64,000 bases of DNA. It comes from Paraglaciecola psychrophila 170 (GTDB taxonomy: Bacteria > Pseudomonadota > Gammaproteobacteria > Enterobacterales > Alteromonadaceae). Location: NCBI RefSeq assembly GCF_000347635.1, contig NC_020514.1:930001-994000 (forward strand). The letters are read 5' to 3'. A program made the translations under genes and the position numbers. The notes under the pieces were generated by a model. It was not told the origin of the DNA and ran no database searches. It worked only from the letters and a program-made list of their open reading frames with translations. Positions 24,441 to 55,236 of this stretch are shown here, in pieces. Positions within the stretch are counted from its first letter, which is position 1. Every line of letters begins with the position of its first letter.

Positions 24441-24558
24441 AACCTCAGAGGAAAATCAAGGAACTACGGCCTGATAAATGTAATTGTTTCGGCAAAGCCA
24501 CATCACCTAGCCCTTCGCTTTCCTCTGTGTGGCGTCAGCGCTTTTTTTCCTCGGTGGC
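24441..24558. repeat. MITE-like CACAGAGG/CCACCGAGG element, degenerate copy A
   Basis: The left part carries AACCTCAGAGGAAAA and the right part CCTCTGTGTGGCGTCAGCGC, then T7 and CCTCGGTGG. It shares the order, spacing and middle motif (GGCACTACG-like GGAACTACGG) with the two better copies at 26.8 and 27.1 kb. Confidence 0.6.
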
Positions 24559-26842: not shown

Positions 26843-26995
26843 AACCACCGAGTAAAAAGAGGTCACAGAGGAAAAGAAAGATACTACGAATTAATTTTGG
26901 TGATGGTCTTTTCGGCAATGTTTCACCGGGCTGATGTGGCTTATCTTTCTCTGTGTAGCGTTAGCGCTCTTTTTCCTCTGTGGTGGGATCGATTT
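26843..26995. repeat. MITE-like CACAGAGG/CCACCGAGG element, copy B
   Basis: About 153 bases bounded by inverted ends: left CCACCGAGTAAAAAGAGG, right CTCTTTTTCCTCTGTGGTGG. Internal GGTCACAGAGG, CTACGAATTAAT and GTTAGCGCTC are shared with copy C. No coding potential. Confidence 0.8.
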
Positions 26996-27062
26996 TGTCT
27001 TGGTTTTTATTGTGTTTATTGTTTTTATATAGCGTCTAGCTGCTGCCCTTAAAGAGATTTTA

Positions 27063-27198
27063 AACCACCGAGGAAAAAGAGGTCACAGAGGTAAATAAAG
27101 GGACTACGAATTAATAATGGTGATGGTTTTTTAGGTAGGAACGCATCTAGCCCTTAATTTCTCTGTGAAGCGTTAGCGCTCTTTTTCCTCTGTGGTGG
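27063..27198. repeat. MITE-like CACAGAGG/CCACCGAGG element, copy C
   Basis: About 136 bases, same ends and internal blocks as copy B, 67 bases after it in the same orientation. Left end CCACCGAGGAAAAAGAGG; right end CTCTTTTTCCTCTGTGGTGG. The middle differs from copy B, so divergence is older than the ends suggest. Confidence 0.8.
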
Positions 27199-50772: not shown

Positions 50773-51894
50773 ATGACAAATAAAGTAGCGTTAATTACCG
50801 GGGTAACTGGACAAGATGGCTCTTATTTAGCCGAGTTGTTATTAGAAAAAGGTTATGAGGTACATGGTATTAAACGCCGGGCATCGTCATTCAATACGGA
50901 GCGTGTTGATCACATTTATCAAGACGGCCATGAAACCAGTCCCAAGTTTTTTCTGCACTATGGTGACTTAAGCGATAGCTCTAACTTAACCCGTATCATT
51001 AACCTTGTACAACCCGATGAGGTTTACAACTTAGGCGCGCAGTCACATGTGGCGGTATCGTTTGAATGCCCAGAATATACCGCTGATGTCGACGCTATGG
51101 GTGCGTTACGGATATTAGAAGCTATTCGCTTTTTAGGACTTGAAAAGAAAACCCGTTTCTATCAAGCATCAACCTCAGAGCTTTACGGTGAAGTACAAGA
51201 AATACCCCAAAAAGAAACCACGCCGTTTCACCCGCGCTCACCTTATGCGGTAGCCAAAATGTATGCCTATTGGATCACTGTTAACTACCGTGAATCTTAC
51301 GGCATGTATGCCTGTAACGGTATATTGTTTAACCATGAGTCACCCCGCCGTGGCGAAACCTTTGTTACCCGCAAAATCACCCGTGCCTTAGCAAACATCT
51401 CGCAAGGTTTAGAAAAATGTTTGTTCTTGGGTAACATGGACGCTCTGCGAGACTGGGGCCATGCTAAAGACTACGTACGTATGCAGTGGATGATGTTACA
51501 ACAAGACGTTGCCGACGACTTTGTGATAGCCACGGGTAAACAAATTTCTGTACGAGAGTTTGTACGTTTATCAGCACAGGAACTCGGCATAGAGCTTGAA
51601 TTCAACGGTGAAGGCATAGACGAAACAGCCACAGTCAAATCAATCACTGGTGACAACGCCCATGCCTTGACAGTGGGCGATGTAATCGTAAAAGTCGATA
51701 CCCGCTACTTCCGCCCAGCCGAAGTAGAAACCTTGCTGGGCGACCCAAGCAAAGCCAAAGAAAAACTTGGCTGGACCCCAGCCATCACCGTTGAAGAAAT
51801 GTGCGCAGAAATGGTTGCACACGATCTAGATAAAGCCAAACAACATGCTTTACTAAAATCAAACGGTCATAAAGTTAACGTCTCGGTAGAATAA
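50773..51894 (+). CDS. gmd: GDP-mannose 4,6-dehydratase
   Basis: 373 aa, full length. First step from GDP-mannose to GDP-L-fucose. Nucleotide-binding motif [20 protein letters not shown] near the N-terminus, active-site pair in [13 protein letters not shown] (Y-x-x-x-K), and [15 protein letters not shown]. Its usual partner fcl is 1138 bases downstream instead of adjacent. Confidence 0.96.
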
Positions 51895-51920
51895 AAAACA
51901 CGAGGCACGAGAACAATATT

Positions 51921-52199
51921 TTCACCACAGAGGAAAACGAGGACACAGAGGCAAGAAAATAATATGCATTACTCTATGAACTTGGTAGTGAGTTATTTAT
52001 GTTTTTATCATAACCATCTATCTCGTTTACCTCGGTGTTCTTTGTGGTAAATAGCTTTAGTTGTTTTTAATAAAGAATGGTTCGGTGGTAAGTACTTGTG
52101 TTTTTATCTTAACCATCTGCCTCGTTTACCTCATTGTACTCTGTGGTAAATAGTTGTTTTATACATTTTGAACTCGGTGGTGAATATTTTTTAGGAGGT
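51921..52199. repeat. CACAGAGG/CCTCGGTG repeat array upstream of the GxxExxY gene
   Basis: Starts CACCACAGAGGAAAACGAGG, followed by GGACACAGAGG. A segment of about 53 bases (52002-52054: T5ATC, TAACCATCT, TCGTTTACCTCGGTG, CTTTGTGGTAAATAG) is repeated at 52101-52153 with few changes. A CTCGGTGGTGAATAT box lies just before the gene. Confidence 0.8.
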
Positions 52200-52203
52200 A
52201 GTA

Positions 52204-52575
52204 ATGGAAACGGATCTTCTTACTCAAAAAGTCATTGGTTGTGCGATAGAAGTGCATAAGGAGTTAGGGCCTGGTTTATTAGAATCTAGTTATGAATGTT
52301 GCTTGATGTATGAACTCGCCAAAGCAGGGATAGTGGCGAAAAACCAAGTTGTACTGCCAGTCAATTACAAAGGTGTGTTGATTGAAAGTGGGTACCGGAT
52401 AGATATATTGCTGCCTAAAAAGTTAATTGTTGAGTTGAAGGCGGTGGACAAATTATCGCCTATCCATACCGCTCAAATGATCACATATTTAAAGCTAAGT
52501 GAAATTAAAACAGGCTTATTGATTAACTTTAACGTGCAAAAACTCTCTGATGGGCTTAAACGAATTAGTATGTAA
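52204..52575 (+). CDS. GxxExxY-family protein (PD-(D/E)xK nuclease-like)
   Basis: 123 aa, intact, with a strong ribosome binding site (TTAGGAGG). The name-giving motif is G24-L-L-E27-S-S-Y30. The PD-(D/E)xK-like triad D67, E77, K79 sits in YRIDILL and LIVELKA, and HTAQMITYLKL follows (H88, Q91). Family members are small, uncharacterised and predicted to have a nuclease fold. It lies alone between repeat arrays that separate gmd from fcl, so it behaves like cargo or engine of an inserted element, not like an EPS gene. Confidence 0.85.
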   Translation: METDLLTQKVIGCAIEVHKELGPGLLESSYECCLMYELAKAGIVAKNQVVLPVNYKGVLIESGYRIDILLPKKLIVELKAVDKLSPIHTAQMITYLKLSEIKTGLLINFNVQKLSDGLKRISM

Positions 52576-52584
52576 ATCAACCAA

Positions 52585-53003
52585 TAATTGTATTCTCTGT
52601 GTGTAATGCGAAGCATCTCTGTGTTCTCGGTGGTTAATATGTAGGTTGGAATAAAAGAATATAGATTGAACCACCGAGGACACTGAGAAAATAGGAATAA
52701 GGTATTTAATCTTAACTTCGTTGTACTTGTTGGTCTTAGTGGAATGAAGGATTAAAGATTGAACCACAGAGGACACCGAGAGCACCGAGGAAACAGCAAT
52801 AAGGTTTTTAATTTAACCTCTGTGTGCTCTCCACGCGGTGGCCGGAATCCTCGGTGGTTAATATGTTTTTGGTAGCCTTTTTTGGTTGATTTGTAGTTTG
52901 AAATATAAATATAAAGATTGAACCACAGACATCAGTAATGTCGCAGTAACAAAGCTTTTAAGATTATTTTAACCTCTTTGTACTTTGTGCCCTCGGTGGT
53001 AAT
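52585..53003. repeat. CACAGAGG/CCACCGAGG repeat array downstream of the GxxExxY gene
   Basis: Three direct repeats begin GATTGAACCAC at 52664, 52757 and 52916, each followed by an A/G-rich stretch and a converse CCTCTGTG or CCTCGGTGGT end (52626-52640, 52813-52860, 52970-53003). Together with the upstream array they frame the gene. The array ends 30 bases before the fcl start. Confidence 0.8.
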
Positions 53004-53032
53004 TTGTTTTTGTGGTGAATAAGGATTTAAAA

Positions 53033-53992
53033 ATGAAAAGAATTTTTGTTGCGGGCCATAACGGTATGGTTGGGTCGGCTATAGTTAGGCAGTTGGAAAC
53101 ACGCGGTGATGTTGAACTTGTATTGCGTAGTCGTAGTGAATTGGATTTATTGGATCAACATGCGGTTGTTGCGTTTTTTGCTTCTGAAAATATTGATGAG
53201 GTGTATTTAGCGGCTGCTAAGGTGGGAGGGATTGTTGCCAACAATACCTACCCTGCTGAGTTTATTCATCAAAACTTGATGATCCAGTGCAATATTATTC
53301 ATGGTGCTCATCTGTCGGGTGTGCAAGATTTACTATTTTTGGGTTCGTCTTGTATTTACCCTAAGTTAGCTGAACAGCCAATGAAAGAAACAGCATTGTT
53401 AACTGCTACCTTAGAGCCGACTAACGAGCCTTATGCGATTGCTAAAATAGCCGGTATTAAATTGTGTGAGTCGTATAACCGGCAATACGGGCGAAATTAC
53501 CGCAGCGTAATGCCCACTAATTTATATGGCCCTCACGATAACTTTCATCCGGAAAACTCTCATGTTATTCCTGCTTTATTACGCAGGTTCCATGAAGCCA
53601 AATTGACAGGTTTAGATGAAGTAGTTGCCTGGGGCTCGGGTAACCCCATGCGTGAATTTTTGCATGTTGATGATATGGCCTCCGCGTCTATCTTCGTGAT
53701 GGAGTTAGATCAATCTACCTATGCAGATAACACCCAAGACATGCTCAGCCACATTAATGTGGGTACAGGTGTTGATTGCACTATCCGTGAATTAGTTGAG
53801 ACCGTCTCTAGAGTTGTTGGCTTTGAGGGCAGTATCGTCTTCGATACGACTAAACCTGATGGGGCGCCTCGCAAGTTAATGGATGTGACTCGTCTAACAA
53901 ATCTGGGTTGGGGATATTCTATTGGACTCGAACAAGGTTTGAAGAGCAGTTATCAATGGTTTTTAGCCAACCAAGATAATTTTAGAAAATAG
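53033..53992 (+). CDS. fcl: GDP-L-fucose synthase
   Basis: 319 aa. Second enzyme of GDP-fucose synthesis (epimerase/reductase) after Gmd. Motifs [29 protein letters not shown] and the catalytic [10 protein letters not shown] (Y-x-x-x-K). The start at 53033 has a ribosome binding site (AAGGA); an in-frame GTG at 53012 would start inside the repeat array. Last intact gene of the cluster. Confidence 0.96.
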
Positions 53993-54089: not shown

Positions 54090-54377
54090 ATGACTAAACG
54101 AACAAACAGGCATTATCCAACAGAATTTAAGTAAGAAGCGGTTGCTCTGGTAATTGAGCAAGATTACTCAATCGTGCAGGCAGCTGCGTCTTTGGGCGCG
54201 ACAGACAAACTACTTTACAACTGGGTAGCCAAGCATAAGAAACAGGTACAAGGTTATGTGCTGTCTGGTGATGAACGGGCAGAGTTAATTCAGCTCAGGA
54301 AGGATAATAAACGTCTACACATGGAGCGTAAAATCCTAAAAAAGGCAAGTGCCTTCTTCGCGAAAGAAATGAAGTAA
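54090..54377 (+). pseudogene. IS3-family orfA (HTH protein), stop-interrupted
   Basis: Reads TKRTNRHYPTEFK, stop (TAA at the position of a glutamine codon), EAVALVIEQDYSIVQAAASL, GATDKLLYNWV, then the leucine-zipper-like LIQLRKDNKRLHMERKILKK. Only the part from 54174 is open. The helix-turn-helix and zipper are otherwise conserved. Confidence 0.8.
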
Positions 54378-54379
54378 GA

Positions 54380-55236
54380 TATTCTTTTATAAGTGAGCTT
54401 GATGCTAAATATCCTGTGTCAGTTGCTTGTAAAGTGATGGAAGTGAGTTCGTCAGCATACTACGTATGGCTAAAAAGACCGGGTGAACTCATAGTCGCTC
54501 AAACACTTAGACTGTATCGACGAGCAAAAATATTATTCAAGGCGAGTCGAAACAGTTGAGGCAGCGCAGAGCTTGCTAAAGCACTACGCAAAGAAGGCTT
54601 TGAGATAACACGTTATCGCGCCATTAAGCTAATGGAGCGGCTTAAATTAGTTGTGACTCGGAGAATAGCTTATAAAGTGACAACCAAGCAAAAACACAGT
54701 GATGCTGTGGCTGACAACTTGTTAAATATGAATTTCAATCCAGTTGGACCCAATCAAATTTGGGCGGGTGATGTGTCCTATTTAAAGACGGGTGAGGGCT
54801 GTTTGTACTTAGCAATTGTCATGGATTTGTACTCACGCCGTATTGTTGGTTGGCATATATCAAAACGCATGACGCGTGATTTGGTCGAGCAAGCGCTGGT
54901 AAAGGCCCATAACTTACGTAAACCGGCAAAAGGTGTGATATTTCACAGTGATAGAGGCTCTCAGTCCACGAGTACAGGCTTTAGAAATTTGGTGTCGCGA
55001 TTAGGTAGTCGAGCCCAGCATGGGTGACGTTGGAGCTTGCTGGGATAATGCTGTTGTGGAGCGTTTCTTTGGAAGTATAAAGCATGATTAGTTGTTTAAA
55101 GTACCGCAGCCAACTTGATGACATATTCGAGAAGATGTGACTAGGTACATGAAATATTACAATGTTGAGCGACTGCATTCAGCCAATTTGGAGCAATCGT
55201 CAATTGAATTTGAAAATTCCTTTAGAAAAGTGTCCG
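54380..55236 (+). pseudogene. IS3-family orfB (DDE integrase), multiply broken
   Basis: Frames give YPVSVACKVMEVSSSAYYVW, stop, KALRKEGFEITRYRAIKLME, then DVSYLKTGEGCLYLAIVMDL (first catalytic D), FHSDRGSQ (second D) and further fragments with stops. The final catalytic glutamate region is scrambled. The transposase cannot be active. Confidence 0.85.

Follow-up and report, generated by a model that had tools for sequence, protein, structure and literature searches.

A GxxExxY nuclease-like gene and its inverted arms of 7-bp modules: a probable compact intergenic element of bacteria and archaea

Between gmd and fcl of Paraglaciecola psychrophila 170, in the 64,000-nt stretch analyzed here (the window; feature coordinates count from its position 1), lies a 1138-nt spacer that runs from 51895, the base after the gmd stop, to 53032, the base before the fcl ATG. 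As the first-pass annotation of this DNA had described, the spacer holds one intact gene of 123 codons with a good ribosome-binding site (AGGAGG just upstream of the open reading frame, ORF), set among short repeats. That annotation also proposed that the nuclease-like gene is tied to these repeats as REP-associated tyrosine transposases (RAYTs) are tied to repetitive extragenic palindromes (REPs). Comparing the locus with others (G000 denotes its own genome, other G-numbers the genomes compared, and L-numbers extracted loci), we found that GxxExxY genes are closely associated with inverted arms of 7-bp modules, and that arms and protein change together.

The 123-aa protein, which contains the GxxExxY motif, matches the TIGR04256 GxxExxY profile at 148.7 bits (cut-off 35) and PF13366 PDDEXK_3, its sole Pfam match, at 144.9 bits (cut-off 22). 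The triad proposed at the outset (D67, E77 and K79) is invariant in 55 of 55 aligned homologues, as are E27, Y30 and Q91. With this conserved D...ExK signature and an alpha-beta core fold in the predicted structure (predicted local distance difference test score 95.8), both of which define the PD-(D/E)XK superfamily, we regard the product as a putative PD-(D/E)XK nuclease. Its gene is the only GxxExxY match in the one-contig 5.41-Mb genome. An anti-phage defence role was considered and set aside, as PADLOC gave no confident defence match for three proteins of the family, the only hits being to Cas4/Cas4b for two of the three (E 0.006-0.009).

The arms consist of two to four tandem 7-bp modules, with the form CACMGAG here and CRCNRAG in most relatives. 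Allowing up to three mismatches, we count 11 matches to the pattern ACCACMGAGGACACMGAG in the window, seven of them inside the spacer; the expectation from shuffled sequence is 0.05, and the highest count in any of 100 shuffles was 1. The repeats that had been noted around the gene, with relatives elsewhere in the window, are thus real, with the correction that the arms nearest the gene are co-oriented, being '-' both on the left (52139/52173) and on the right (52617), and the array is bounded by a '+' arm at 51924 and a '-' arm at 52992. This copy is a composite array, untidier than most of its relatives. Genome-wide, ACCACMGAGGACACMGAG has 97 matches at up to three mismatches against 17 for the reversed control, and 60 against 3 at up to two. 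A looser scan of fetched stretches of the same genome gave 114 arms, a few single ones of which resemble chance matches, at up to 39 places and often in strings of alternating orientation (+-+-+-). Gene-less units in this genome are facing arms, mostly about 70-150 bp from end to end as paired by a script that also joins a few unrelated boxes. A/T tracts are conserved for about 20 bp past the outer ACC, and like units at distant sites (about 3.15 and 4.10 Mb) share 78% identity over 249 bp.

Table 1. Features of the gmd-fcl locus and gene-less repeat units in the window
Feature	Position	Strand	Evidence or details
gmd, GDP-mannose 4,6-dehydratase, left neighbour	50773..51894	+	TIGR01472, 587.8 bits
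Upstream repeat array	51921..52190	.	arms 51924-51953 (+), 52022-52048 (-), 52120-52147 (-); single box 52173 (-); repeat search, pattern matches, arm scans
Ribosome-binding site AGGAGG	52193..52198	+	read off the sequence
GxxExxY / PDDEXK_3 nuclease-like gene, 123 aa	52204..52575	+	E27 of GxxExxY, D67, E77-x-K79, Q91
Downstream repeat array	52617..53000	.	arms 52617-52634 (-), 52670-52687 (+), 52763-52790 (+), 52850-52858 (-), 52983-53000 (-); repeat search, pattern matches
fcl, GDP-L-fucose synthase, right neighbour	53033..53992	+	NF047922, 536.6 bits
Gene-less copies: two tandem hairpin-type units, each an inverted arm pair	26844..27196 (26844-26984, 27064-27196)	.	
Further gene-less inverted pair, more diverged	24442..24558 (genome 954442-954558)	.	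arm scan

To assess the association beyond this genome, we assembled a main sample of 80 loci from named genomes (the best 80 of 573 confirmed stretches, with at least 589 found), each with up to 10 kb on either side; their titles name 17 phyla, and two of the loci are archaeal. Within 250 bp of the gene the density of CRCNGAG module pairs is 4.88 per kb, and it drops to 0.13 per kb beyond 3 kb, the 5-10 kb range included; the reversed control gives 0.36 per kb near the gene and 0.01-0.03 per kb farther out. The 74 of 80 loci with full flanks were scored against 595 control ORFs, taken from the same contigs no closer than 1.5 kb to the gene; a CRCNRAG pair was found within 250 bp of 68 of the 74 GxxExxY genes and of 69 of the 595 controls. 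Facing arms are present at 48 GxxExxY loci and seven controls, outward-pointing arms at four and five, and the reversed motif at nine and 20, respectively. Enrichment near GxxExxY genes had been set beforehand as a test able to refute the tie between gene and repeats, and the tie stood. Where arms lie within 150 bp, their median distance is 20 nt before the matched start (60 loci) and 11 nt after the stop (49 loci). In a second sample drawn from one phylum, 21 of 29 loci have full flanks, and of these 17 have modules, 13 have facing arms and none has the reversed motif.

A single pattern for all genomes proved unsuitable, as ACCACMGAGGACACMGAG misses the period-8, period-10, CGC, GAA and GAT variants; we therefore used degenerate modules together with a motif-free test, in which the 200 nt upstream of a gene were locally aligned to the reverse complement of the 200 nt downstream. 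At a threshold score of 30, this test is positive for 40 of 74 GxxExxY genes, for three of 601 control ORFs from the same contigs and, with flanks exchanged between genes, for 25 of 364 pairs, the first figure probably being low because the gene start was guessed and can fall upstream of the arms. The three positive control ORFs are an IS200-like Y1_Tnp transposase (L151), a second PF13366 gene (L091) and a methyltransferase (L141). The Y1_Tnp ORF with its inverted flanks (L151:12285-12725), perhaps a RAYT, was found blindly by the inverted-repeat test on a contig that also has a GxxExxY gene. We also considered the TIGR02436 four-helix bundle, another small accessory family, as an alternative partner in gene-less, repeat-rich relatives. 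It matches in eight of 60 genomes, with a module pair at one of 10 loci, about 1 kb away; we rejected it, and it serves here as a negative control.

Module spacing is mostly 8, 9, 10 or 11 bp and is particular to each locus, for example 10-11-10 on both sides. Both arms lie within 150 bp at 39 loci, and in every one of these (39 of 39) the left and right spacing strings agree over the length of the shorter string, with a mean of 12.5 and a maximum of 23 after shuffling. Spacing also follows the protein: on a tree of 93 rows, 84 of them with one of four spacing classes, built on few columns and with 61 of 90 inner branches open, spacing class requires 18 changes compared with 45.2 when shuffled, and none of 300 shuffles was as low. 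Restricting the comparison to pairs from different phyla gives a rho of 0.325 that none of 500 permutations reached, and permuting within phyla likewise gave 0 of 500. In 48 of 72 rows, with 16.0 expected, a protein shares its spacing class with the closest protein outside its own phylum. The phyla themselves are mixed on the tree, where their 17 groups take 38 changes (minimum possible 16, shuffled 53.1).

The modules also differ in their last base, which we sorted in a larger set that adds 50 genes from the phylum search, seven plasmid loci, five virus loci and loci from the scans of relatives and of the phylum. Among proteins of the GLLES type (n = 135, with 59 outside the first 80 and five dropped for short flanks), CRCNRAG pairs are found at 125 loci and CRCNRAT pairs at two, while the GFLEK type (n = 23) has none of the former and 13 of the latter. 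The 15 loci of neither type have four of each and eight without either, one locus falling in both counts. Sorted by the residue that follows E, and with 16 loci dropped, S (n = 137) goes with a final G in 126, A in two, T in one and no assigned base in eight; K (n = 15) with T in 14 and none in one; A (n = 5) with A in three, C in one and none in one; and G (n = 2) with C in one and none in one. The single loci with L, R and V gave one A and two without a base.

The gene is patchily distributed, being present in seven of 60 relatives (own genome counted) and 65 of 398 genomes in the phylum. At least five matches to ACCACMGAGGACACMGAG, a pattern derived from the window's own repeats, were found in five of the seven gene-bearing genomes among these 60 and in four of the 53 gene-less ones (p = 4e-4); within the genus, the numbers are five of six and three of 16 (p = 0.011). 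To count triple-module patterns we chose, by spacing class, 49 of the 80 named genomes that carry the gene; at least five matches over three patterns are present in 42 of them, control not subtracted. The 9-9 pattern has 719 matches in 16 class-9 genomes, 494 in 17 class-8 genomes and 44 in 16 class-10 genomes, and the 10-11 pattern has 221, 43 and 32 in the class-10, class-9 and class-8 genomes, respectively. Carriage on phages or plasmids was rejected as the main route, since the window protein (tblastn, E 1e-5) matched none of 50,697 phage records and only eight of 72,556 plasmid records.

Orthologous sites with and without the element were found at several junctions. A spacer that never varies among relatives had been named at the outset as a second refuting outcome, but the gmd-fcl junction does differ in length, with extremes of about 10 nt in G040 and about 3.7 kb in G016; the series at wzc-cpsB and before cobQ are clearer. 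A CpsB-like gene is present in 16 of 22 genomes of the genus. In 11 of the 16, the wzc-cpsB junction is empty, with the wzc stop at -16 to +6 nt relative to the point where cpsB homology begins, and in the remaining five (G002, G003, G010, G013 and G014) it contains an insert with repeats. The inserts of G002, G013 and G014 carry a GxxExxY gene opposite to the operon, in two copies in G013, one of them partial. G010 has the gene in the reverse orientation relative to these three, its wzc end lying outside the extracted locus. Insert size is 0.7-1.4 kb in G002, G003, G013 and G014. The G003 insert (L210:394-1122) has arms and no GxxExxY gene, and includes instead a 242-aa secreted-protein-like ORF with a hydrophobic stretch and a basic tail at its end; this ORF looks PEP-CTERM-like by eye, a hint that arms can carry other genes. 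Other insertion sites are wecB/wecC in G019, ruvC/ruvA in G034 and fabD/fabG on a Sphingomonas plasmid.

For the cobQ site we searched 16 genomes of the genus of G268, six of which show both junction flanks together; the gene upstream of the junction we take to be bluB. The junction is empty in G175, where TATCCATC is directly joined to ATGAAAAC; it is filled in G268, G290 and G311, with the gene between arms, and scarred in G207 and G322, where a left-arm remnant persists and the gene is gone. ATCCAT stands on both sides of the insert in G290, has one substitution in G268 and is not kept in G311. In G268 the arm gives the upstream ORF its stop codon, which overlaps the ATG of the nuclease ORF. 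Here the upstream gene and the nuclease gene both end inside an arm (L287:2070-2110 and L287:2450-2470), with TDEHR in both ORFs. The GAT-type arm therefore carries an ATGA stop/start overlap, which may keep translation of the operon coupled after insertion. A second dispersed repeat of about 63 nt, beginning GGAAGTGCGACTTTAGTCGC (L314:1501-1563 and the L289 junction), occupies the spot of the missing nuclease gene at the cobQ site, and 22 of 24 query matches in G207 fall on it.

We consider the probable explanation to be a compact, REP/RAYT-like intergenic element, made of a PD-(D/E)XK nuclease gene and inverted arms of 7-bp modules, whose enzyme acts on its own repeats, because the catalytic residues are retained, matching arms hug the gene, arms covary with the protein, and gene-less copies and empty sites exist. 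The mobility and repeat-directed activity suggested in the first-pass annotation would then take the following form. The protein would bind module arrays with one protomer per module, the spacing being near a helical turn, and would draw together both arms of an inverted pair. Cutting at the arms or right beside them may follow, after which host repair would copy or excise the unit, so that gene-bearing and gene-less hairpin forms could spread into gaps between genes. These steps of binding, cutting, protein-driven spread and repair-driven copying we infer from sequence comparison.

Several observations weigh against this explanation. No CRCNRAG pair lies within 250 bp at six of the 74 loci (L081, L083, L087, L117, L147 and L153), of which L087, L147 and L153 have other inverted arms, while the modules of L081 and L117 end in A and T. 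G003, G016, G021 and G047 contain repeats and no gene, and G014 has the gene with only three repeats. The 8-8 triple pattern failed as a class marker (790/513/478 matches), and some genomes have many matches to its reversed control, which sum to 221 over the 17 class-8 genomes. Four divergent relatives on virus contigs (L227-L230, of five virus contigs) are without arms, and 10 of the 23 GFLEK-type loci have neither module type by regular expression. Phyla are still clustered on the protein tree, with fewer changes than when shuffled. The residue-to-base table was discarded as independent evidence since it is clade-level, with only two independent pairs. The 6-bp target duplication before cobQ is a possible candidate at one site and probably a single event.

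In G047, which belongs to another genus and is 85% complete, 70 repeats were found and no GxxExxY match, which could be due to gene loss or an assembly gap. Module arms are also absent from the divergent relative on a Prevotella plasmid (L286), which together with L227-L230 may represent a repeat-free branch.

An alternative, which we judge unlikely, is that another enzyme or plain recombination spreads the repeats, with the GxxExxY gene a passenger between them or cargo inside them. The unrelated gene in the repeat-bounded wzc-cpsB insert of G003 is in keeping with this, as are gene-less yet repeat-rich genomes and the tandem unit arrays of G000, which could expand by unequal recombination. 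However, TIGR02436, another small accessory family in the same genomes, has a module pair at just one of 10 loci, the arms hug the GxxExxY gene on both sides, and covariation of the gene with arm spacing and last module base across phyla would not be expected of a passenger. Somewhat less likely still is a resident protein, either a regulator that binds DNA or a housekeeping nuclease such as one processing junctions or hairpins, for which the repeats would be unmoved binding sites or operators; this fits poorly with the patchy presence of the gene, the empty and inverted orthologous sites and the mixing of phyla on the protein tree. Although the opposite orientations at wzc-cpsB (G010 compared with G002, G013 and G014) and the insertion between co-directional genes would suit an invertible switch, in which the stretch enclosed by facing arms is turned over, through the nuclease or through host recombination, and expression of neighbouring operon genes changes as a result, the many dispersed gene-less copies and the empty sites require spread beyond inversion and make this very improbable.

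The self-acting nuclease element that we favor resembles REP/RAYT systems, and REP doublets forming hairpins (REPINs) or bacterial interspersed mosaic elements (BIMEs), in its inverted repeats around the gene, dispersed gene-less copies, alternating clusters, and repeat type that follows enzyme phylogeny. Passages of PMC2817692 describe RAYT genes flanked by two inverted repeats, gene-less dispersed repeats, alternating +/- clusters, matched enzyme and repeat types, and a REP head of GT(A/G)G, and REPs are given as 20-40 bp palindromes in part of PMC3733652. Unlike RAYTs, which are IS200/IS605-like HUH/Y1 enzymes, the GxxExxY protein matches PDDEXK_3 only and is not homologous to them, and its arms, unlike REP palindromes, are tandem 7-bp modules at 8-11 bp spacing. 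Miniature inverted-repeat transposable elements and their parent terminal-inverted-repeat transposons likewise combine short non-autonomous inverted-repeat units with a gene-bearing form that has the same end type, and show empty sites; unlike those transposons, the single gene of the unit encodes a 123-aa PDDEXK_3 protein of the PD-(D/E)XK fold rather than a DDE transposase. Rpn and YhgA-like (transposase_31, PF04754) proteins are also PD-(D/E)XK nucleases. They differ from GxxExxY proteins in belonging to another Pfam family, and we are not aware of cognate inverted repeats paired with Rpn genes. A link of Rpn/YhgA-like proteins with recombination and horizontal transfer is described in PMC5350276. 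The GxxExxY protein matches Cas4 (SSO0001) and archaeal Holliday junction resolvases at fold level only, and unlike in the Cas4 setting, the window gene adjoins gmd and fcl rather than cas genes. The other side of fcl (54174-55027) holds two pieces of transposase-like ORF (67 and 131 aa), which on a reading of their translations resemble a disrupted IS3-type element.

No paper among the open-licence papers searched was found to link the GxxExxY family to repeats, though an earlier description elsewhere is possible. The passages seen there mention GxxExxY in a virus gene table and as a gene beside a reverse transcriptase, and PF13366/PDDEXK_3 in a remark on domain expansion; the sole match to repeat module strings in that literature is a fish environmental DNA paper. 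The repeat family is widespread and apparently unnamed. Since the enzyme is unrelated to RAYT and DDE enzymes and the repeats are built differently, the system would be new in kind, though RAYT/REP-like in its working. We advance more tentatively, at somewhat less than even weight, that the GxxExxY proteins form a new class, mobile nucleases that read repeats by a modular protein-DNA code. In this code the subfamily, through the residue after E, would set the last module base (S-G, K-T, A mostly A, and G-C in one case), and spacing between modules (8, 9, 9.5 or 10) would depend on the clade. Because the residue that carries the code adjoins the presumed catalytic Glu, reading of the repeat could be linked to its cutting.

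These results point to an enzyme partner for a repeat family found beside the GxxExxY gene across the sampled loci of 17 named phyla, which include archaea. They also open to testing a protein family that appears only as gene labels or domain counts in the open-licence passages seen. The element would show the REP/RAYT lifestyle achieved a second time by unrelated means. Given its subfamily-specific modules and spacing, recognition could be tested directly by arm swaps in vitro, and a 123-aa putative nuclease with a modular, subfamily-specific recognition sequence is of practical interest. If the proposed code is true, the GxxExxY enzyme would have left its footprint in environmental bacteria and archaea as a very common family of small repeats.
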